Below are positions 15,945-52,994 of a DNA stretch of 64,000 nucleotides, in pieces. Every line of letters begins with the position of its first letter. The first letter of the stretch is position 1. The DNA is from Thermoplasmata archaeon. GTDB lineage: Archaea; Thermoplasmatota; Thermoplasmata; Methanomassiliicoccales; Methanomethylophilaceae. The notes beneath the pieces are model-generated. The model was not told the origin of the DNA, made no database searches, and was given only the letters and a program-made list of their open reading frames with translations. The stretch is from assembly GCA_015063125.1 (NCBI GenBank), contig SUTB01000001.1:62001-126000 (forward strand). The letters run 5' to 3'. The position numbers and the translations under genes were made by a program.

Positions 15945-17177
15945 TCACTGGGAGAATGTTTGTCTGACAGCTTCGTTGACATCGCCGCCAGAGATCACGA
16001 CCTTGATCCCAAGGCTGGCAAGGATCTTCGACGGCATGGGGCCGATCTCCTCGACAATGACCGTTCCGCACTCCCCGATCTGTTTCACGATGGATTCGAT
16101 ATGATGCCTGTGATCCTGTCCCGCAACGGTCTCGGACCTATCGATAGGCACGGTCCTTAGGAACCTGACCGTGTTCCCATCGGTAGCGTATATCCTGAAC
16201 TCCGATGCGTTGCCGAATCCGGAATTGACCGTCTTTCCGTCGCTGGTTGCCACAGCTACCTTGGACTCGTCTTTCTCGACTTCGATGGAGACATTGATCG
16301 GATTATCCTTCAGCCCGCATCCTTCTATGTGCGTGAATTCCTGGGAACGGTCCTCGCCCAGAAGTCCGATGGCATCCGCACGGCATTGCCTGCAGTGACG
16401 CATCATCTTCATGTCCAGACCGCAGCGGTCCATCATGTCCCTTCTCTCCAAGGGAGTAGGTGCCTTGAGGTCTGAGAACTTGGTCCCTTCAACAGGGATG
16501 AGCGGGAGGATGTTCACGATGTACACTCCCATCTCCTTGACCTGCTTCACCAGGTCGGGGATGTGGTCGTCGTTGATCCCGGGAACCATGACGATGTTGA
16601 TCTTGACCAGCATCCCCAGGTCCACGCATCTTCTGATGCCTCCGAGCTGTCTGTCCCTGAGGATGGTCGCACCTTCGACACCGGAGTGCTTCTTGCCTTC
16701 GAAGATCACGGCATCGTAGATCTTGGCCCCGATCTCCGGATCGGTGCAGTTCATGGTGACCGTCACGAACCTTACGTTCAGGTCGTATAATCTCTGGGCG
16801 CAGTCCGGGAGCGCCAATCCGTTGGTGGATACGCAGAGCGTCAGCTCCGGCATCTCTTCTCCTATAAGCTCCAGAGCTTGGAATGTGTTCTCGTTGGCAA
16901 GCGGGTCTCCAGGACCAGCAATTCCGATGACCGACAGCTGGGGGATCTGTTCCTTCACAGCCTTCACCTTGGCCAGTGCCTGCTCCGGTGACAATACCTC
17001 GCTGGTCACACCGGGCCTGGACTCGTTGCAGCAGTCGAACTTCCTGTTGCAGTAGTTGCATTGGATGTTGCACCTAGGTGCCACCGGCAGGTGCATCCTC
17101 GCGAACGTATGATGGGCATCCTCGCAGAAGCAGGGATGCTCCGATAATGCTTTCTTGATGTTCTCGGGAATATCCAT
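15945..17177 (-). CDS. nifB: NifB-type radical SAM protein with C-terminal NifX-like domain
   Basis: The N-terminal half has the radical SAM motif CNIQCNYC within PVAPRCNIQCNYCNRKFDCC, typical of NifB, which builds the 8Fe-9S-C NifB-co precursor of nitrogenase cofactor. Further NifB cysteines (HCRQCRADAIG, EGCGLKDNP) are present. The last ~100 residues (KVAVATSDGKTVNSGFG onward) form a NifX/NafY-type cofactor-binding domain. ATG at 17177 is preferred; an in-frame GTG at 17189 would add four residues. A TTTTTTAAG box near 17208 fits a start close to 17180. No nifHDK or nifEN is in the window, so its role here is open; some methanogens carry nifB without nitrogenase. Confidence 0.88.
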   Translation of the reverse strand: MDIPENIKKALSEHPCFCEDAHHTFARMHLPVAPRCNIQCNYCNRKFDCCNESRPGVTSEVLSPEQALAKVKAVKEQIPQLSVIGIAGPGDPLANENTFQALELIGEEMPELTLCVSTNGLALPDCAQRLYDLNVRFVTVTMNCTDPEIGAKIYDAVIFEGKKHSGVEGATILRDRQLGGIRRCVDLGMLVKINIVMVPGINDDHIPDLVKQVKEMGVYIVNILPLIPVEGTKFSDLKAPTPLERRDMMDRCGLDMKMMRHCRQCRADAIGLLGEDRSQEFTHIEGCGLKDNPINVSIEVEKDESKVAVATSDGKTVNSGFGNASEFRIYATDGNTVRFLRTVPIDRSETVAGQDHRHHIESIVKQIGECGTVIVEEIGPMPSKILASLGIKVVISGGDVNEAVRQTFSQ

Positions 17178-17268
17178 GGCTCGTTTCACATCGCGGACTC
17201 TCTTAAAAAAGATACTGTCTTCCAGTAGATTATTATCGTACTAGTCAATCGAAGGGGGAGGGAGGCAA

Positions 17269-18654
17269 ATGGTGCAGCTGCTCAGGTCGGACAGTAATGA
17301 TTTGGACACACTGTTGGGGGAACCTAAGAAGGCCATCCGCAGCATGTTCACTCCGTTCCTGATAGCATTCGCGATCATCGAGATCAACCAGTTCGTGGAC
17401 ACGTTCTGGATATCAGGATTGGGAACCCAGTCTGCAGCCGCCATCTCCACGATCATCCCTTTCTACATTCTTCTGATGTGCACAGGCATAGGGATATCCG
17501 TAGGTTCAACGACCTCAGTCGCGTTCCGTGTCGGCCGCGGGGAGATTGAGGACGCATCAAAGCTCGCATCCAATGCGCTGTTGCTGGGGATCGGGATGTC
17601 CATGGTAGCATCTCTGGCCCTGTTGCTGATATTGGACACGGCCATAGACGTGCTCGGTGTAGACAGCATCAGACAGAATTGCTGGGATTACCTTCTACCG
17701 ATGATATTGCTGAACGCACCGATGACCCTGCTCACGGTCATGGGAGGCAATCTCAGGGGCGAGGGTGCGGCCAGGAGATCCATGATCATACAGATAACCG
17801 CAGCCCTTCTGAACATGGTCTTGGATCCGATACTCATATACGTGTTGGGGATGGGCATATCCGGTGCCGGTCTGGCAACCGGTCTGTCAGCCACGATATC
17901 TTTGATGATCGGGCTGTCATGGTATGTGAGGGGCAAGACCCTCATCAGGATGGACCCTTCCACCCTCAAGGCGGATAAGGTCATGATGAGGGAGGTCCTG
18001 ACCGTGGGCGGACCAAGGACTGTCAATGAGCTCATCGGCAGCGCCATGACCTTCATCCAGAGGATCTTTTTCGTGGTAGCCGGAGGTACGGCGGCAGTGA
18101 CGATGTACAACTATCCGTGGAGGTTCATCTCGCTGTTCATGCTTCCGGGCAAGGCCTTCGAGAGCAGTCTGATCCCGGTGAGCTCCGCAGCACATGGCCA
18201 AGGCGATACCGACAAGATGTGGGCGGCATACGTGTACAGCTTCAAGCTGACTGCTGCGATATCCATTGTGGCCACCGTTCTGATATTCGTGTTCGCTGAA
18301 CCGCTGATGTCCATCATGACCTATGAGGAATCCATGCATTCCCTGCTGGACAAGCTGGTCTGGTGCCTGGAGCTGTCCTGCATAATACTGCCATTCATGG
18401 CGCTGAGAGGAGTCGGTGCCGCATTGCTCCAATCAATGAAGAAGGCGAAGATACCGATGTACTTCGACCTGTTCTGGGGTTCCGTGCGCATGGTGCTGTA
18501 TGCGCTGAGCGCCTATGGGCTGCTTGGAGTGGATCCCTTCGACGGGATCATCTACATCATGGTTATCGTGTACTCCCTGAGCGGAGTGATAATCAACGCA
18601 CTAGCGGTATGGCAGTTCAAGAAATTGAGGCGTATCATCCGCTCTAACGAATGA
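17269..18654 (+). CDS. MATE-family multidrug/sodium antiporter
   Basis: The 461-residue integral membrane protein has about 12 hydrophobic segments in two similar halves. MATE features are present: EINQFVDTFWISGLGTQSAAA in the first helices, and later GNLRGEGAARRSMIIQI and LRGVGAALLQSMKKA. MATE proteins export cationic compounds in exchange for Na+ or H+; the substrate cannot be read from sequence. The start has a GGGAGG site directly upstream. The stop is followed after about 55 nt by the DUF61 gene, which has its own TATA box. Confidence 0.88.
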   Translation: MVQLLRSDSNDLDTLLGEPKKAIRSMFTPFLIAFAIIEINQFVDTFWISGLGTQSAAAISTIIPFYILLMCTGIGISVGSTTSVAFRVGRGEIEDASKLASNALLLGIGMSMVASLALLLILDTAIDVLGVDSIRQNCWDYLLPMILLNAPMTLLTVMGGNLRGEGAARRSMIIQITAALLNMVLDPILIYVLGMGISGAGLATGLSATISLMIGLSWYVRGKTLIRMDPSTLKADKVMMREVLTVGGPRTVNELIGSAMTFIQRIFFVVAGGTAAVTMYNYPWRFISLFMLPGKAFESSLIPVSSAAHGQGDTDKMWAAYVYSFKLTAAISIVATVLIFVFAEPLMSIMTYEESMHSLLDKLVWCLELSCIILPFMALRGVGAALLQSMKKAKIPMYFDLFWGSVRMVLYALSAYGLLGVDPFDGIIYIMVIVYSLSGVIINALAVWQFKKLRRIIRSNE

Positions 18655-25909: not shown

Positions 25910-27316
25910 ATGAGCGAGTATTACACAAGAATGGGTGACGGAAAGAGAGTCACCATGACCAAGGAGAAGATCCTCGACGATATCCATGAGGGTACCGCCG
26001 ATGCAGCAGACATGGCTTCCATCCCCCAGTTGGACGCGAACGCTATCGAGCACATCGCCGAGATCATCATGTGTCAGGACAGGGTCGTCGGAGTAGAGCC
26101 CGGCCAGGAGGTCGTCCTTTCGTACGATATCGGACAGCTGGACTTCACAGGAGACAACGGAAACTCTGGAAACGGAGTCGACATGGGAAGGCTCGAGGCA
26201 GCACTGCTGCACGAGAGGGCACTTGGAGCCGACACATTCGAGCTTGCCCACTCGGACTATTCAGTCAAGCCTGTCAAGCCCATCATCTCCATGGAGATGC
26301 AGACCATGGAGGAGATCCAGGCTGAGATCATCGCACCGTTCTTCTACGGAGCTATGCCCAACCAGGGACTCTACTACGCCCCCGACGGACCCTACGGAAA
26401 CCCCGCAGACCTCATGAGGGAGTTCAAGATCGAGGAGTCCATGCAGCAGTCCGAACTGGCTTCTCAGCACGTCACAAGGGATATCGAGTACGTTGCAACA
26501 AGGCTCCAGGCAGCCGGATCCGATGGATTCAACTTCGACACAACCGGTTCCGCAGGAGATGCGGACTGTGTCGGAACACTCAACGGAGTCAAGATCCTGA
26601 GGGAGCAGTGCCCCGAGGCATACATCCAGGTCGGTTTCGCTGGAGAGTCCATCATGGGAATCCACGGAATGATCGAGTTTGAGGGACAGGTCGTTGCAGG
26701 AATGTATCCCCACCAGTACGTCCACCTTGCAGAGAAGGCAGGAGCAAACGTCTGCGGAACAGTCTGTAACTCCAACACCAGCAAGTCACTTGCATTCAAC
26801 ATCGCAAGGGCAGTCACATTCATCAAGGAGGCTGTCAAGACATCCAACATCCCGATCCACGCGGACATGGGAATGGGAGTCGGAGGAATCCCGATGTGCG
26901 AGACGCCCCCGATCGATGCAGTCTCCAGGGCCAGCAAGGCAATGGTCGAGATTGCAGGCGTCGACGGTATCTAGTGCGGAGTAGGAGACCCCGCCGGAAT
27001 GGACCTGCCTCACTTCCTGACATCGGGAATGGGAGGAATCAGGACCACCGGAGATCTCATCGCCAGGATGCAGTTCGGAAAGAACATGAGAATCAAGGAT
27101 GCTAAAGAGTACGTCGCGAAGAAGCTCGGTGTCACCGCCGTAGAGCTTGCAGACGAGTTCGTGATGAGGGACCTCCGTGAGGAGCTCGGAATCGGGCTTG
27201 TCACCGGAGTGCCCGGAGCACCCCGCGGAATCGCAGCCAAGATGAACATCGAGAACCTTCTCGACATCAAGATCAACAGCTGTGAGAAGTTCCGCGAGAA
27301 GACACAGAAACGCTGA
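25910..27316 (+). CDS. mtbB: Dimethylamine methyltransferase with pyrrolysine at codon 355
   Basis: It transfers a methyl group from dimethylamine to MtbC. The gene is interrupted by an in-frame TAG at 26972-26974 (codon 355), inside the conserved context [12 protein letters not shown][14 protein letters not shown]. Reading through gives a 468-residue protein, the family's normal length. The TAG is decoded as pyrrolysine, whose imine ring binds the amine. The N-terminus ([20 protein letters not shown]) and the segment [20 protein letters not shown] match MtbB. It should be annotated as one CDS, not two. A stem-loop at 27328-27356 follows. Confidence 0.95.
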
Positions 27317-27419: not shown

Positions 27420-28913
27420 ATGAAACAAATCCAGTACCCTGGAAAAATCGGAATGAACGGTATCAAGATGAACCTGTTCACCCATGATGACTGCGTGTCA
27501 ATCGACCTTGCAACAAGGGATGTTCTCTGGAACTACGGAGTGCAGGTTTCTGACGACGAGTGTATCAAGATCTTCGAGGACGCCGGCTGTATCGTCAACT
27601 ACGAGACAAAGATGGTCAGGATCCCCGACTTCCTTCTGAACAAGGCACTCGCATCCGCCCCCAAGACATTCTACCTCTACGGAAGGGATGACGACCACAC
27701 AGTCGAGCAGGCATGGAACGGACGTGTCCACTACACCTGTTTCGGAACCGGAATCCAGGTATGTACATACCTTGGAGACGGAAAGTACGAGACCCGTGAC
27801 TCCAACAGTAAGGATCTCGCAGACATTGCAAAGCTGTGCGACTGGGCAGACGGAATCAGCTACTTCTCTCTCCCTGTCTCCGCAAGAGACTTCGCAGGAA
27901 AGGGTGCAGAGGATGTCCATGAGATGTACATCTCCATCGCCAACACTGTCAAGCACTTCCACCACATCGACCCCGTCGCTGAGCACGTGAAGTACTACTG
28001 GGAGATGCTCAAGGCATACTACGGAGGAGACGCAGAGAAGGCCCGCGACAGGCCCCTGATGTCCATGCTCGTTTGCCCTACATCACCTCTCGAGCTGTCA
28101 CACAATGCAGCACAGGTTATCAAGCAGGGAGCAGAGTTCGGAATCCCCGTCAACGTCCTGTCCATGGCAATGGCCGGAGGATCCTCGTCCGTTCACCTCG
28201 CAGGAACACTCGTCACCCACAATGCAGAGATTCTCTCTGGAATCATCCTCGCTCAGATCGTCAAGCCCGGAGCACCTGTCTACTACGGATCCTCCACTAC
28301 GATCTTCGACCTCAAGCACGGAACCGCACCTGTCGGAGCACCTGAGCTCGCTCTCATCTCCGCAGCTGTAGGAGAGCTCGGAAGGTACTACGGACTTCCC
28401 GTCTTCACGGCCGGTATGTAGACCGACGCCAAAGTCCCTGACTCCCAGGCAGCCCACGAGAAGACCATCACTTCACTTCTCCCCGCAATGGCCGGAGTCA
28501 ACATGATCTACGGATCCGGAATGCTCGAGCTCGGACAGACCTTCTCCATGGAGCAGCTCGTCATCGATAACGACATTATCGCGATGGAGAGGAAGGCACT
28601 TGAGGGAATCGTCGTCAACGATGAGACCCTGGCAGTCCCCGTCATCAAGGAGCTCGGAGTCGGAAAGGACTTCATCGGACACCCCACCACCATGGCAAAC
28701 ATCGACCTTGCATCAGACCCCACCGTGTTCAACAGGGACATGATCGGAGACTGGAGAGCACAGGGATCCAAGGCATGTGTAGACGTCGCCCACGAGATCG
28801 TTGTTGATGTACTCAAGAACCACGTCGTTGCACCCATTGACCCTGAGATCGCAAAGAAGATGGAAGCAATCGTCAAGCAGGCCGACGATGATTTCCTTAA
28901 GGGAAAAGAGTGA
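27420..28913 (+). CDS. mttB: Trimethylamine methyltransferase with pyrrolysine at codon 334
   Basis: It demethylates trimethylamine onto the cognate corrinoid protein MttC. The in-frame TAG at 28419-28421 is codon 334, the position known for pyrrolysine in characterised MttB, in the context GLPVFTAGM[12 protein letters not shown]. With readthrough the protein has 497 residues, full length. N-terminal [22 protein letters not shown] and C-terminal [20 protein letters not shown] match the family. It has an AAAAGGAGG site 8 nt before the ATG and is 37 nt before mttC. Confidence 0.96.
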
Positions 28914-32055: not shown

Positions 32056-33996
32056 TCATATGATTTTCGCGTTAGCGGTACGCACCAGATTGATTTCCTC
32101 ATAGGTCTCTATGCGGAGATCGTCCAGAGTGTAGTACTTTGCATGAAGGGCATTTGCGAATTTCACCGCGTTATGCTCCACATCCTCGCGTTTCTCAGTA
32201 TCGATGACGATCCATTTTACCGTGGGGAGGTTGACTTTCTCGGCCATCTCCAGGGCCTGCTTGAGGGGATCAGTTTCCTTATCGTCCGGATCTAACGGAA
32301 GGTTGGCATTTCCGTCTGTGACCAATACCACATAGCAATCATCGTTGGGACGTTTCTTGGTGTACATCGCCATATAGTTGCTGAGGTATTGTATAGCACC
32401 GGAGAGCGGGGTCTTCCTGCCTATGGCCAGATCATCAAGCATCTTGTAAATGACCTCCACCTCTCTTGAGGGTTGCAGAAGCATTGTGATGGCCTTTTCG
32501 TTGAAGGTCATGAAACCTACGCGGTCCTTCTTGACATAGTGTTCTTTGAGCAGGGAAAGGATTGCTCCTTTGACCGCGACCATCCTGTTACGGATAATGA
32601 GCGAACCGCTTGTATCCACTGCGAACAAGAAGGTTGAGGAGCTCCTCGTCTCCCTGATCTTCTCCCTCATGTCCTGTTTCTCGATGATGACGGCCATATC
32701 GGTGTCATTCTCCTTATGGCGTTTCATCTGATAGGGGGCGCTAGCGCGCACGGTCGCATCGAAGGCGAGATCAGGATTCTTCTCATCGGTGACTCTGGAA
32801 CCGACGTATCTGCCGTTCCTCTCTTTGGTCTTCTGCTGGAATCTCTTCCCATTGGCAGACGCTTCGCCCTTTGCCTTCGCAGTGTCCTGTTCGAAAAGAT
32901 CGATGGTCTTGAACGTCTCTCCGATCTTAGTGATGACGTCCTCTGTTTCTTTCCTTTTGAACTTAGGTCCGTTACCTTCTTCCACAGGCTGGTTGGCCGA
33001 CATATCGGTGATGCCGTCGCCCGACAGATCTACGTTGTCTTCTCTGTTGGTGAACAGCTTCTTTGCAGCTTTGGAATCCGTGTTGAATCCGACGGTTGAC
33101 CTGGCCAGTTTCTGCTTCTTGTCAACCCTTCTTCCTTTGACGACTTTCACTCTGTGGTTAAGACAGAGGACGGACGCTTCCATGATGTCGGATTCGTTTG
33201 TCTCCGTTCTTCCATCCAGCGCAGCCAGAGTCATGGCGACGTTTGCTGCAGAGAGGTCTCCGCGGTGGCCATCGATGCCCATGTTGTTGCACACGCCGGC
33301 TATGGCCTCCATCAGAGCCTCAGAAGGCTCCTCATCCTTCAGGATATCCGAGGCACGGGTTATCCTGTCGTGGACCTCATCATCCGCCTCGCGGTACTTC
33401 TCCATGAATACGTCAGGGTCATCGTCGTAGGCGATGCTCCTCCTCAGGATCTCTTCTCTCCCTGCCGAATCTTCTGGATAGTCCACGGTGACGCACATGT
33501 CGAAATGGTCCAGGATCGGAGGGGAGAGGTACGAGTCACTGTTGTTCATGGTGGCGACCAGGATAGTGTCCACCTTGTACGACGTGGACATGTTCTCCCT
33601 TTCAATCCTCACCTGACCTGACAGGACAGCATCAATGACTCCTGTGATGATCCTGTGTTCGAATAGGTTGATGTCATCCATGTACAGGATGTTGTGGTCA
33701 CCTCTATTGAGCAATCCTTCCTGAAGAGATAGCTTCCCTTCTTTGACCGCCAGTTCTATATCGAGACAGCCGAACAGTTGCTCATCGGTGACATTCAGCG
33801 GAATGTTCACTATCGATTTTCCGGAAATCTGTCCGAGCGAACGTGCTACCAGTGTCTTCCCGGTACCGGACGGACCTCTGATTAGTACTGATTTGATGCG
33901 TGGATTCGCTATCGCGCACATCAGTGCTTTCTTGGTCTGATCCATCCCGTATACTGCAGAGAAAGGATAGTAGGCCGTCTTCAAATTCCCAGACAT
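32056..33996 (-). CDS. ChlD/BchD-like AAA+ and VWA protein of a metal chelatase
   Basis: The 646-residue protein has an AAA+ domain with Walker A GPSGTGKT (about 40-47) and Walker B LYMDDIN, a long charged linker (about 300-400), and a C-terminal VWA domain with the MIDAS motif DTSGS near 465. This is the D-subunit layout of Mg/Co-chelatases, which works with an I subunit and a large CobN/ChlH subunit. The I subunit is encoded next to it with a 16-bp overlap. No CobN is in the window. In a corrinoid-dependent methanogen cobalt insertion is the likeliest task; other AAA-VWA remodelling roles are possible. Confidence 0.82.
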   Translation of the reverse strand: MSGNLKTAYYPFSAVYGMDQTKKALMCAIANPRIKSVLIRGPSGTGKTLVARSLGQISGKSIVNIPLNVTDEQLFGCLDIELAVKEGKLSLQEGLLNRGDHNILYMDDINLFEHRIITGVIDAVLSGQVRIERENMSTSYKVDTILVATMNNSDSYLSPPILDHFDMCVTVDYPEDSAGREEILRRSIAYDDDPDVFMEKYREADDEVHDRITRASDILKDEEPSEALMEAIAGVCNNMGIDGHRGDLSAANVAMTLAALDGRTETNESDIMEASVLCLNHRVKVVKGRRVDKKQKLARSTVGFNTDSKAAKKLFTNREDNVDLSGDGITDMSANQPVEEGNGPKFKRKETEDVITKIGETFKTIDLFEQDTAKAKGEASANGKRFQQKTKERNGRYVGSRVTDEKNPDLAFDATVRASAPYQMKRHKENDTDMAVIIEKQDMREKIRETRSSSTFLFAVDTSGSLIIRNRMVAVKGAILSLLKEHYVKKDRVGFMTFNEKAITMLLQPSREVEVIYKMLDDLAIGRKTPLSGAIQYLSNYMAMYTKKRPNDDCYVVLVTDGNANLPLDPDDKETDPLKQALEMAEKVNLPTVKWIVIDTEKREDVEHNAVKFANALHAKYYTLDDLRIETYEEINLVRTANAKII

Positions 33997-35009
33997 ACAT
34001 CCAACTCCTTCTCATCGAAGGTGACGTTGTCGAATGCACGTTTCTTGAGACGGTGTGACAGGACCAGGGGAGCGATCTCGCGGAGGTCTTGTTTGGTGAC
34101 CTCTTTCCTCCCGTCCAGCGCGGCATTGGCTTTGGCAGCCCTCATCATGGTGATGTCGGCTCTGTGCCCTTCCATCTTGAAGTGTATCGATACCATGACG
34201 ATATCATGGATTATCTTGTCGTCGAGCTTCACTTCAGAGAGAGTCTCTCTTGCGGTGACGATTTTCTTGCGGAGCTCATCTATCTCGTCCTTGCAGGATT
34301 CCAGGTATCCTTCGGGATCCTTGTCGAACTCCATCCTGCGCTTGATGACCTCCATCCTGGTGGGGACCTCCTTCTCTCCCTCGATATCGACACAGAGTCC
34401 GAACCTGTCCAATAACTGGGGCCTGAGGCTTCCCTCTTCGGGGTTCATGCTTCCGATGAGAATGAACTTGGCAGGATGGGAGAATGATACGCCCTCCCTC
34501 TCGATGTAGTTGACACCCATCGCGGCGGAATCAAGGAGCAGATCGATTATATGGTCGTCCAGAAGGTTGACCTCATCCACATAGAGAACGTTCCCGTTTG
34601 CCTGTGCGAGAACTCCAGGTTCGAACTTCTTCTCTCCTGTTTTGAGGACATGTTCCAAATCCAACGTTCCGGACACACGGTCCTCGGTCGCACTCAGAGG
34701 GAGTTCCACAACGGTCATCGGCATTTCCTCGGATTTCAGTTCTTCCCCTTTCGAGAGTTTTTCGCGACATTGGATGCACATCCTCTTGGGATATCTGGGG
34801 TCGCAGTGGAACGGACAGCCGATAACGGTTGGTCTCATAGGGAGAATCTGTGACAAGGATCTGATGGAGGTGGACTTCGCCGTACCCTTTTCCCCTTTGA
34901 TCAAAACCCCGCCGATTCCAGGGTCGATGATGTTCAGGAGCAATGCTTTTTTCATCAAATCCTGTCCGACTACACGGACAAATGGGAACATAATCGATTC
35001 CGTTGTCAT
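33981..35009 (-). CDS. ChlI/BchI-like AAA+ subunit of a metal chelatase
   Basis: The 342-residue AAA+ ATPase has Walker A GEKGTAKST (about 38-46), a Cys-rich insert CPFHCDP...CIQC (about 64-83) known from archaeal/bacterial ChlI-type proteins, Walker B LYVDEVNLLDD and sensor GSMNPEEGSLRPQLLDRFGL. ATP hydrolysis by I and D subunits drives metal insertion into tetrapyrroles. It is the first gene of a two-gene operon; its end overlaps the ChlD-like start. A TATA-like CTTTATTAA at 35036-35045 and AGGTAAT before the ATG support the start. Confidence 0.85.
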   Translation of the reverse strand: MTTESIMFPFVRVVGQDLMKKALLLNIIDPGIGGVLIKGEKGTAKSTSIRSLSQILPMRPTVIGCPFHCDPRYPKRMCIQCREKLSKGEELKSEEMPMTVVELPLSATEDRVSGTLDLEHVLKTGEKKFEPGVLAQANGNVLYVDEVNLLDDHIIDLLLDSAAMGVNYIEREGVSFSHPAKFILIGSMNPEEGSLRPQLLDRFGLCVDIEGEKEVPTRMEVIKRRMEFDKDPEGYLESCKDEIDELRKKIVTARETLSEVKLDDKIIHDIVMVSIHFKMEGHRADITMMRAAKANAALDGRKEVTKQDLREIAPLVLSHRLKKRAFDNVTFDEKELDVCLGI

Positions 35010-35067: not shown

Positions 35068-35077
35068 TTTTTATATG
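35068..35077 (+). promoter_or_regulatory. TATA box for the amber-containing small gene
   Basis: TTTTTATATG is centred 26 nt before the ATG at 35098, so the transcript should start at that ATG (leaderless). Confidence 0.7.
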
Positions 35078-35097: not shown

Positions 35098-35526
35098 ATG
35101 TCCAGCAAGGCTCAAGATTATTCAAATCTCACAGATGAAGACATAGAGAAATTGATCCTTTAGAAACACGAGAAGGATGGAATCAATCCGAAATCCATCG
35201 AGGAGCTGAAGGAGAACAGAGCCTGTATAGAGAAGATCGATGAAATCCTGATGCCCTATGCGGATCGCGTCAAAGAACTGGATAATTTTGTAGATGAGGC
35301 AGAGCTTATAGAGCACTTCCATCTGGACAGTGACGATCCGGAAGTGCTTGACAAAGGCCTCAAGGACATGTGGCAGCGCGTAGGGATGTTGGAGAACGGT
35401 GCGGCAAACGCCGCAAAGAACGGCAACACGAGGGAGAAGGTAGAGCTTGAGGCAGAGGTACGTGCTCTCAGTAAGCTTAGGGCCCAGACCCTCCAGAAGA
35501 TTGAGAAACTCAAAAAATCCCAGTGA
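35098..35526 (+). CDS. Small charged coiled-coil protein with in-frame TAG at codon 22
   Basis: From ATG 35098 the frame reads MSSKAQDYSNLTDEDIEKLI, then L, then TAG at 35161-35163, then KHEKDGINPKSIEELKEN and on without interruption to TGA at 35526. The total is 142 residues if the TAG is read. Sequence on both sides of the TAG has the composition of a coding, helical, Lys/Glu-rich protein. The next in-frame ATG is at 35251, which would drop 51 codons. The TATA box fits initiation at 35098 only. In this Pyl-decoding organism the TAG may be read as pyrrolysine or may give a 21-residue peptide. The last third (TREKVELEAEVRALSKLRAQ) is a likely coiled coil. Family not recognised. Confidence 0.7.
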
Positions 35527-35535
35527 GAAGATACC

Positions 35536-36063
35536 ATGGAAGTAGACATCGGAAGGAAACGCTTCTCTTTCACTCTTGACGACAGTCTCTCCAGGGAGGA
35601 GATGAAGAAGATCGGCCGTGCAATCCAATACAGGAATCAGAAGAAGATGATCGCTACTGTTTTGGTGATCTCCATCATTATCGTTTTGGTAACCCTTTAC
35701 GTCAGTCGCGTCGCTATATTGCTTTACATAGTCCTACTGGTTCAGGTTGCGGTATACCTGGAGTTTGGATCCAGGAGCATCGTCGACAATCTGAAGAAGA
35801 AGTTCCCGATCAGCTATGATTTCTACGAGGACGGTCTCATCGAGCATGAGGAAGGGAAGGATACCCTCCTGATGTACGATCAGTTCAGCGGCATAAACAT
35901 GAATGAGTACGTCTTCACAATGGTCGGAAAGGGAAGCGAGGTCGTCGTGATCCCCAGGAGTCGTCTCGATGAGGAATCGACAGAGTTGGTCATGAAGCTC
36001 GGAAGGATTCTTGCCAGAAGGAAGAAGAGGGTCCTGAAGACCTCAGGCAAGAACTCATCCTGA
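35536..36063 (+). CDS. Membrane protein with two helices and a cytoplasmic domain
   Basis: The 175-residue protein has a short charged N-terminus, two adjacent membrane helices (about 38-75: MIATVLVISIIIVLVTLYV and ILLYIVLLVQVAVYLEFG) and a C-terminal cytoplasmic domain of about 90 residues with IVDNLKKKFPISYDFYEDGL and VVVIPRSRLDEESTELV. That domain resembles YcxB/PH-like domains. It ends in a basic tail. It is 9 nt after the amber-containing gene, so the two are likely co-transcribed. Function unknown. Confidence 0.7.
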   Translation: MEVDIGRKRFSFTLDDSLSREEMKKIGRAIQYRNQKKMIATVLVISIIIVLVTLYVSRVAILLYIVLLVQVAVYLEFGSRSIVDNLKKKFPISYDFYEDGLIEHEEGKDTLLMYDQFSGINMNEYVFTMVGKGSEVVVIPRSRLDEESTELVMKLGRILARRKKRVLKTSGKNSS

Positions 36064-36541: not shown

Positions 36542-36838
36542 TCCTTCATTTCTAGAAAGGTCGAACTCGCGGGCGGAATTCTAATTGGATATATAGTCCA
36601 ACTTTTATATACCAATTTACCCTTTTAATACGGATCAAAAATCATTAAATACAATGGTAAAAACTGATTCTGCAGTAATTGATAATTTTTAATATGGTAA
36701 AAATGAAATTGAAAGAAAATGAGGCCATTTTCCTACAACCATATAAATAACTATGCCTGATTATGAGTTATCTTTTTAAACCATCAATACAAATTCTAAC
36801 CAACTGAAAGGAAACTGACAGTGTTAGGAGGAAATTCA
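36542..36838 (+). promoter_or_regulatory. AT-rich promoter region of the APC permease
   Basis: About 300 bp without a gene. It contains TATA-like sites (GGATATATAG near 36587-36596, TTTTATATACC near 36604-36614), a dyad TTGGA-TATATAG-TCCAA (36585-36601), and ends with TTAGGAGG before the ATG at 36839. The long AT-rich regulatory region resembles that before mtbC. Confidence 0.5.
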
Positions 36839-38608
36839 ATGGCTAAGCATGGAGTAAGGATCCTTGCCGAAGGTAACAGCCACTCTTTTGGAGGAGGTTT
36901 TACCGAGGAAACGGGTCTGGTCAAATCCATCGACTGGAGGCAGGGAGTCATCATCGCAATGGGTGTGCCCATCCTGATCCTTCCGGGTATTTACGATATT
37001 GCAGGAACCGCCTGGGGACTCAGTATCTTCATTTGGACCATCTCCGTTATCCAAGGTTTCGCTCAAAATCTTGCCATCGGTGAGTTGGCAGCTGCACTCG
37101 AGACACCCGGTATTGGTGGTTGTGCGCAGAAGATTTTCACGAAACCGAATGGAGGGAGATTCGGTGTTGGAAAATTCATGGGAGCGTTCACGGCATGGTC
37201 GTATTGGTTCACGTGGACCCCTGTTATCCCGATTTTCACTTGTACTGCGATCGATTACATCACCAAATATCTGGAGTATGGTCTCGGAATAGGACCGTTC
37301 GATGACAACATTATGTTCGCATTCCAGATCCTGTTCGGTATCGCAGTTTACAGTCTGATTATCTATGTCGGTTCCAAAGGATTGTCCGGCGGAGCGAAGA
37401 TGGGACTCATCCTCGCTTTGATCGCTATCGTCCCGCTGCTCGTCGTCGTCATAACGCCGTTGATCGGTGCTACCGTAGGCGACGCATCGTCCGGCCTTAC
37501 CGGATTCTCCCTGGACAGGATATTCGAGAACCTTGTCCCCGAAGGATGGGGCTGGGGTGCCGGCGACTTCATGATGGTCTTTGGAATGTTCGCGTATGCT
37601 CAGTGGTGTGCATGCGCTTGGGAGTCCGCTGCAACCTATGGAGCAGAGTACAAGACCCCTGGAAAGGACGTACCGAAGGCGCTCATCTCCGCAGGTCTCA
37701 TCTGTCTTGCATTGTACTTCATGGTACCGTTCGTCGTATATGGAATGATGACTCCTGGTCAGATCGATGACTGGGGAATCTCCACCATGTACCCGATCGC
37801 ACAGTTCGACTTCGGAAGCATCGGATTGGTCATTGCGCTGATCTTGTTCACCGCAGCGATGATCATGCTTATCCAGACCGCATTCCTCGGTTCCTCGAGG
37901 ACCCTGTACTTCATGGGTCACGAGGGTAACATGCCCAAGATCTTCACCTACACCAATAAGAACGGTGCGCCTCTCGTGGCCATGTTCTTCCAGTTCACCA
38001 TGGGTGTGATCTTTGTCATCATCATCCACTTCGGTTCTGTGGGAATGATCCTGGCAGCATCCTCATTCGGATTCTGTTTCGCATTGGGTTCTGCGATGCT
38101 CGCATACATCACTTCGTACAGGAACCCCAGGTTCAAGGACCTCGAGAGGCCCTTCAAGGCCCCCAAGGGATGGTACTATGTGGCCTGTTTCCTGTGCATC
38201 TATCAGTGGTTCGTCCTGATCCCCTGTCTCGCATTCTGGTGCATAAACGGCGGAATCGAGAACGGATTGTTCTCCGTTGTCATCGGTGCCATCATCCTGT
38301 TGATCTATGTCCCTGTCTGGGTCATCCTCCAGTGGAGGGCCGGAAAGGCTGAGGAGAGCTGCTACATCTGCGGAAAGTCCGTGGAGGACTACAACTCCTA
38401 CATCCTGAACGACTCCCACCGCGACTTCGCGGAGCACCAGGACAAGATGGATGAGATGGATTCTCTGCCCATCGTACTCGTCGGAGACATCTACGTCAAC
38501 ATGTGCCCGATCTGCTACGAGCTCACTTTCGGTACCGCCAATGTCGATGGCAAGGGCTCGAAGATAAAGAACTACATGGATGTCGAAAGGTATTACGACA
38601 AGGAGTGA
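36839..38608 (+). CDS. APC-family permease with C-terminal Cys-rich domain
   Basis: The 589-residue protein begins MAKHGVRILAEGNSHSFGGG and has about 12 membrane helices of the amino acid/polyamine/organocation (APC) type (GVIIAMGVPILILPGIYDIAG near the start; GSSRTLYFMGHEGNMPKIF in the middle). After the last helix there is a soluble tail of about 90 residues with CYICGK (near 508) and CPICYE (near 555), a probable zinc-binding pair. Methanogen monomethylamine permeases belong to the same superfamily, so amine or amino-acid import is plausible; the substrate is not proven. TTAGGAGG at 36825-36832 gives a strong start. Confidence 0.75.
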   Translation: MAKHGVRILAEGNSHSFGGGFTEETGLVKSIDWRQGVIIAMGVPILILPGIYDIAGTAWGLSIFIWTISVIQGFAQNLAIGELAAALETPGIGGCAQKIFTKPNGGRFGVGKFMGAFTAWSYWFTWTPVIPIFTCTAIDYITKYLEYGLGIGPFDDNIMFAFQILFGIAVYSLIIYVGSKGLSGGAKMGLILALIAIVPLLVVVITPLIGATVGDASSGLTGFSLDRIFENLVPEGWGWGAGDFMMVFGMFAYAQWCACAWESAATYGAEYKTPGKDVPKALISAGLICLALYFMVPFVVYGMMTPGQIDDWGISTMYPIAQFDFGSIGLVIALILFTAAMIMLIQTAFLGSSRTLYFMGHEGNMPKIFTYTNKNGAPLVAMFFQFTMGVIFVIIIHFGSVGMILAASSFGFCFALGSAMLAYITSYRNPRFKDLERPFKAPKGWYYVACFLCIYQWFVLIPCLAFWCINGGIENGLFSVVIGAIILLIYVPVWVILQWRAGKAEESCYICGKSVEDYNSYILNDSHRDFAEHQDKMDEMDSLPIVLVGDIYVNMCPICYELTFGTANVDGKGSKIKNYMDVERYYDKE

Positions 38609-52793: not shown

Positions 52794-52949
52794 TCATTTC
52801 CTTCTGACGTATTTCTCGACCAGGCCTTTCTTTCCTACCAGTTCGACGTCCACGGCGCCCTCGTTCTTCGCTATGGCCTCAAGGAGCTTCTCCTTGTATG
52901 CCTACTGATGGGTGATGTGTCCCTTAATGGCGTGAACCGTGAAAGCAAG
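52794..52949 (-). pseudogene. Small minus-strand reading frame with internal TAG, possibly a remnant
   Basis: The last 35 codons before the TGA at 52794-52796 read AYKEKLLEAIAKNEGAVDVE and LVGKKGLVEKYVRRK, with normal codon use and composition. They are preceded directly by TAG (52902-52904) and, in the same frame, IKGHITHQ. No clear start codon is found upstream before the HdrD-like gene. It may be a gene remnant, or the TAG may be sense. A plus-strand frame over the same bases is also open, so the coding strand is not certain. Confidence 0.35.
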
Positions 52950-52994
52950 GAAGAGCTGGCGGAAGAATTGTCTGAATCTGAACCCGAGTGAGGT

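Follow-up and report, generated by a model that had tools for sequence, protein, structure and literature searches.

The window, by which we mean the whole 64,000-nucleotide stretch of DNA that was analysed, comes from a methane-producing archaeon of the gut and contains a small gene interrupted in frame by a TAG codon, flanked on one side by a divergent chelatase-like gene pair and on the other by a membrane protein gene. The features considered here are as follows.

25910..27316, plus strand: dimethylamine methyltransferase MtbB, a neighbouring pyrrolysine (Pyl) gene, with its TAG at 26972-26974
27429..28913, plus strand: trimethylamine methyltransferase MttB, a neighbouring Pyl gene, with its TAG at 28419-28421
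32056..33996, minus strand: AAA+/VWA gene, chelatase subunit D-like (profile matches, gene order)
33981..35009, minus strand: AAA+ gene, magnesium/cobalto-chelatase subunit I-like, divergent from the short-form gene
35068..35075, plus strand: TATA-like box TTTTTATA, about 26 nt 5' of the ATG
35098..35526, plus strand: gene for the probable Pyl-containing helical protein, short form, 142 aa, ATG 35098, stop TGA (relatives' alignment, coding score)
35161..35163, plus strand: TAG codon 22, read as pyrrolysine (among the 19 TAG-type members, 17 have TAG and two have GAG)
35224..35226, plus strand: TGT codon 43, the protein's only cysteine (C43), in perfect co-variation with the TAG column
35536..36063, plus strand: membrane protein whose weak YcxB-like match falls slightly short of the Pfam cut-off, accompanying the short form in all six genomes
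36821..38608, plus strand: amino-acid/amine permease family protein, with a distant match, below the cut-off, to the NCBIfam TMAO permease model

The reading frame put forward in the initial annotation, from 35098 through a TAG at codon 22 to a TGA stop ending at 35526, proved exact, and the two Pyl methyltransferase genes that it had counted in the window are MtbB and MttB. The box TTTTTATA fully matches TTTWWATA and lies at -30 to -23 relative to ATG 35098, a position consistent with a near-leaderless transcript that would begin at about 35098. Its presence 5' of the ATG supports this start but does not on its own "fix" it, as had been claimed. We then scored the frame by a model of codon log-odds, for which 230 long open reading frames (ORFs) of the same genome were the training set; reference windows of 21 codons had a mean of 0.37 (SD 0.36) when coding and of -0.71 (SD 0.40) when frame-shifted. 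The 120 codons 3' of the TAG scored 0.50 per codon, bearing out the coding quality previously ascribed to them, and the 21 codons 5' of it scored 0.12, which corresponds to the 20th percentile of the coding and the 98th percentile of the shifted windows. The part after the TAG is clearly coding, and the 21 codons before it are compatible with coding. The pooled pN/pS 5' of the TAG was 0.60 in the short group and 0.26 and 0.18 in the two long groups, all of them upper-end estimates since the synonymous sites are near saturation. In the long form the TAG is preceded by a conserved start, M-x-x-S-K-Y-[ED]-R-E-[IL]-R-F, which is common to the sense-codon relatives.

Under the standard code alone, the TAG would be a true stop, and the locus would hold either a pseudogene or a functional protein beginning at ATG 35251, the start that automated annotation with table 11 would call. 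This start removes 51 codons from the gene, as was stated at the outset, and a scan of the frame found no ATG, GTG, or TTG start between the TAG and ATG 35251. Both homology and constraint already set in at the start Met and continue across the TAG, rather than beginning only near 35251, the stretch 35164-35250 includes some of the most conserved columns, Cys43 among them, and a sense codon takes the place of the TAG in two relatives that share the same upstream part. On the upstream homology, the pN/pS constraint, and the sense-codon relatives we rejected both the pseudogene and the downstream-start readings, which we regard as extremely improbable.

We then asked how TAG is used in the genome as a whole, in a 464-kb sample made up of the window and 20 stretches of 20 kb from the same contig. 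Among about 397 confident coding ORFs (strict score), the stops were TGA in 346, TAA in 39, and TAG in 12. All 12 TAG-interrupted ORFs continued as coding past the TAG, leaving no true TAG end among the approximately 397; at a looser score threshold, one or two marginal TAG ends were left over. For comparison, a coding-like extension was found past the TGA in only 27 of 356 TGA-ended genes. Coding continued past the TAG in four of five cases in G007, and true-looking TAG stops made up five of the six TAG cases (5 of 165 ORFs) in G014, a genome in which the sense-codon relative is the sole family member. TAG is a sense codon in the sampled genome, so that the in-frame TAG at 35161 requires no special readthrough device. 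The pylS, pylB, pylC, and pylD genes, the tRNA-Pyl(CUA) gene, and ramA are grouped in one region of this genome (L079), and 27 of 31 congeners have a PylS that scores above the cut-off, fragments being found in others.

Profile searches for relatives covered 147 genomes from the order and 300 from the class. The short protein used as the query returned no relatives in the first scan of the collection, and a second scan with the long-form alignment gave the same species set. The relatives turned out to be almost confined to this genus; a second genus of the family was represented, and there were two marginal matches besides. The gene at 35098-35526 is a member of a helical family that had not been filed before and that divides into three paralogous branches. 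The short form (branch a, 139 to 143 aa) occurs in six genomes, including that of the window, and carries the TAG in all six; the long form (branch b, about 240 to 250 aa) carries it in 11 of 13. Members of these two TAG-type branches share about 30 to 50% identity. The third paralogue (branch c) is TAG-less at the Pyl site and is similar to the sense-codon relatives found in the remaining members of the genus. Two paralogues from profile searches are located as follows.

C4:691639-692385 (L079:11636-12385), minus strand: long form, in the same genome as the window, next to ramA and the pyl genes
C4:618679-619119: third paralogue, in G000

Neither Pfam nor NCBIfam gave a match for the short form; the long form matched only weak coiled-coil Pfam models, below the cut-off, and matches to PHROGs were insignificant. 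Among solved structures, sequence searches returned nothing but generic coiled coils (best E, 0.0014), and fold searches nothing but helical bundles (best E, 0.3 and 0.7).

The alignment of orthologues, which had been named in advance as a test, was positive in both of the ways foreseen: the TAG is conserved, standing in one column in 17 of the 19 members of the TAG-type branches, and both sense-codon replacements are GAG, each with the same upstream part. Judged from the alignment, such recurrence in one column is far beyond chance. An in-frame TAG with homologous coding sequence on both sides, kept in relatives, is what marks a genetically encoded Pyl protein, and the conserved TAG and its GAG replacements strongly support the earlier proposal that a protein other than a methyltransferase has Pyl as residue 22. 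We consider it nearly certain that the gene is translated with Pyl.

A separate question is whether this Pyl matters. With TAG serving simply as a 62nd sense codon, it could be a tolerated, Lys- or Gln-like surface residue with no special chemistry, arisen by mutation of CAG, GAG, or AAG to TAG, as has been proposed for scattered Pyl proteins. Near-neutrality of this kind is favoured by the use of TAG as a sense codon, by at least a dozen other non-methyltransferase genes with an in-frame TAG in the 464-kb sample, by the outgroups, which mostly have Q, E, or K at the TAG column, and by the Glu that replaces Pyl in two members. It is also favoured by the third paralogue, in which one Gln codon is CAG in G000c and TAG in G112c, two sequences of the same species (L146, G000:C4:617500-620500; L134, G112:C1:1347500-1350500), apparently a fresh sense-to-TAG change within a species. 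As a control we aligned an OmdA/YdeI-like TAG gene (L078:17900-18499) with ten congeners, the other two of the three control Pyl genes being essentially without orthologues, so that the control for TAG turnover is this one gene. Many congeners had TAGs in it, at differing columns, and a single column was common to only two genomes; the gene offers a natural record of TAG turnover under a Pyl code. Taken with the fresh CAG-to-TAG change, it indicates that ordinary TAGs come and go, whereas the TAG column of the helical family stays. On the tree of this family the TAG needs three changes, which we read as one gain and two losses because the outgroup from the other genus has a sense codon. The TAG column took 2 tree steps against a median of 5, a count as low as in 18% of columns, which makes it conserved but not extreme; the surface columns adjoining it took 8 to 12 changes on the same tree. 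This persistence argues against near-neutrality, as does the perfect linkage with a cysteine described below, and we hold a near-neutral Pyl to be unlikely.

The linkage between Pyl and Cys was first noticed in 31 sequences. Comparison of alignment column 24 (Pyl) with column 45 (Cys, residue 43 in the window) showed both residues in 17 sequences, neither in 22, and one alone in none, a co-variation that rests on one gain and two losses. The two losses, G013b and G012b, have Glu and Arg at the respective sites, encoded by GAG with CGT in one and GAG with CGC in the other. A tree inferred without the two columns rejected holding G013b and G012b together (p-AU, 8e-5), and an exclusive substitution column, that is, one where two leaves alone depart from an otherwise invariant residue, was shared by only 4 of 171 leaf pairs: G013b with G012b, and three pairs inside the fast short-form branch. 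These results support independent losses of Pyl in the two lineages. In the third branch, the sites of Pyl and Cys are occupied by Lys and Glu in seven of eight sequences; opposite charges in either order at the two sites are expected of residues that face each other. The distance from Pyl to Cys is 21, 17, or 14 residues, near multiples of the 3.5-residue step of a coiled coil, so that insertions and deletions between the two would keep the same helix face. Pyl has been gained and lost strictly together with one Cys, a pattern which suggests that the two residues work as a pair. The initial annotation had mentioned neither the family nor its paralogue by ramA and the pyl genes, nor this pairing.

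AlphaFold models, in which Lys was placed for Pyl, predicted a helical hairpin in both forms, with helices 13-28 and 34-61 in the short form (mean pLDDT, 85) and helices 5-28 and 35-65 in the long one (pLDDT, about 90 for the hairpin and 75 for the whole chain). By these helix limits, residues 23 and 40 of the long form are symmetric about the hairpin turn, and residues 22 and 43 of the short form are within about one helical turn of symmetric placement. The Pyl and Cys sites are thus predicted to face each other across the hairpin, and we consider a functional contact between them likely.

The initial annotation had offered, as the other possibility, that the TAG sets the amount of the protein: with Pyl-tRNA in short supply, translation would stop after 21 codons, and the level of the full-length product would report the supply of Pyl. 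Such a switch would suit the position of the TAG at codon 21 to 23 in every member, where failed decoding leaves a useless stub, and the location of the long form beside ramA and near the pyl genes. TAG is, on the other hand, essentially never a stop in the sampled genome, no conserved or unusual RNA structure was found around the TAG (fold z of -0.8 and +1.1 for the window gene), and the methyltransferases would react likewise to a shortage of Pyl. A mechanism acting at the codon also leaves the co-variation with Cys unexplained, which points to selection on the residue and not on termination. Regulation of the protein's amount is therefore unneeded and not favoured, given that TAG is no stop here and that the Cys co-varies strictly; we judge supply-controlled readthrough to be quite unlikely and a weaker rival than the Pyl-Cys contact pair.

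The best overall explanation, which we regard as reasonably probable, is that Pyl22 is read through the TAG and forms with Cys43 a selected contact pair. Translation from 35098 straight through the TAG would give a 142-residue helical protein with Pyl at residue 22, in the first helix of the hairpin, in contact with Cys43 in the second. The imine of Pyl is electrophilic and accepts nucleophiles (PMC2933860, PMC9842639), and sulfite adds to its imine carbon in crystals of MtmB and MttB (PMC9842639). By analogy, the thiol of Cys43 might add reversibly to the electrophilic imine, creating a genetically encoded clasp of the hairpin that nucleophiles such as amines or sulfite could open; if amines competed with the thiol, the clasp would act as a methylamine or ammonia sensor, and the Glu-Arg salt bridge would be a fallback compensating the loss of Pyl. 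Two members of the TAG-type branches, G013b and G012b, manage without Pyl. A covalent Pyl-Cys link is tentative, and the fuller proposal of a reversible thiol-imine clasp or an amine or nucleophile sensor, with loss compensated by a salt bridge, is slightly more so.

The gene neighbourhood offers some indication of what the protein might serve. The short-form locus, with its divergent AAA+ and AAA+/VWA pair and the fast-evolving membrane protein on the 3' side, is the same in five genomes and, up to the contig limit, in a sixth, and methylamine methyltransferases, SMR transporters, and a permease are close by. In G001, G018, G025, G026, and G029, this locus holds the long TAG gene instead, again beside the AAA+ pair. 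The long gene is convergent with ramA in seven genomes, near pyl and methyltransferase genes. Other congeners carry their sense-codon relatives at different places, where all of these neighbours are missing. Since chelatase-type AAA+/VWA genes, a methylamine-type permease, ramA, and the pyl cluster adjoin the genes of the family, the protein would be expected to serve the methylamine/corrinoid system; that it might act as a regulator or adaptor for the AAA+ pair or for RamA is conjecture based on gene order. Four large chelatase subunits of the CobN type are encoded in the genome, so that the I/D-like pair may serve corrinoid chemistry. Dimethylamine enzymes were also considered as partners of the long form and were dropped: judged by the motif at the Pyl site, the two TAG genes beside ramA resemble MtmB, but no NCBIfam model matched them at the cut-off used.

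To our knowledge, methylamine methyltransferases are the sole demonstrated role of pyrrolysine, which elsewhere is viewed as tolerated noise. Like MtmB, MtbB, and MttB, whose Pyl imine is a reactive electrophile (PMC2933860, PMC9842639), the helical family has an in-frame TAG as Pyl at one conserved position, in the same loci. It differs from them in being small, with neither a TIM barrel nor a family match (no methyltransferase-family match was found in Pfam or NCBIfam), and in having its Pyl near the N terminus (residue 21 to 23) and paired with a Cys. Among Methanomassiliicoccales, genes other than those of methyltransferases are already known to carry in-frame TAGs (PMC4153887, PMC5011839): "Ca. 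Methanomethylophilus alvus" has 16 such genes, TAG making up 1.6% of its stops (PMC4153887), and ISO4-H5 has 46 amber genes (PMC5011839). The putative Pyl proteins of the two, among them MtxX, Cas1, DUF531, and hypothetical proteins (PMC4153887, PMC5011839), resemble ours in belonging to non-methyltransferase genes of the same order with TAG as a rare stop, but they were presented gene by gene, half of them with TAG-free homologues, and with no conserved partner residue. No family like the helical one is described in the text of PMC4153887 or PMC5011839, and Table 7 for M. alvus holds no matchable entry. On a comparison by description with published TAG genes, the combination seen here, a Pyl long conserved in a family other than the methyltransferases and a Cys that strictly co-varies with it, appears to be new. 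A further case is the tRNA-His guanylyltransferase (Thg1) of Methanosarcina, also a non-methyltransferase with a conserved TAG, whose Pyl is reportedly ascribed to neutral evolution, to go by the title of a PNAS article (2009, 106:21103) that PMC4153887 cites; the helical family differs in having a second residue that changes in step with Pyl.

A Pyl that is long kept, and gained and lost strictly with one Cys, makes a second role of pyrrolysine directly testable, and the thiol-imine clasp, if true, would be a use of pyrrolysine outside methyl transfer. A co-varying partner residue also provides a simple evolutionary signature by which functional Pyl sites might be told from incidental ones among predicted TAG genes.

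Kivenson and co-workers are said to have described, in Science in 2025, an archaeal code in which all TAG are read as Pyl, and the present genome, with no TAG stops in the 464-kb sample, fits such a code. Several other TAG-containing genes were encountered. One of the four CobN-type chelatase paralogues (G000:C4:174190-177495; L067:4115-7780, minus strand) has two in-frame TAGs, and nearby relatives have none. In the window, a radical SAM protein with a dinitrogenase FeMo-cofactor domain (15948-17471, minus strand) has a TAG about 75 codons in, 5' of the radical SAM domain, which represents either a Pyl residue or a translation start 3' of the TAG, and a short coding-like frame of 57 codons (52797-52970, minus strand) has a TAG at codon 22. 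Six more coding frames of the genome are broken only by TAG (L064:12934-13566, L080:18308-19555, L072:14433-16586, L073:10172-10777, L081:9527-10249, and L066:6250-6621), several of them without clear orthologues.
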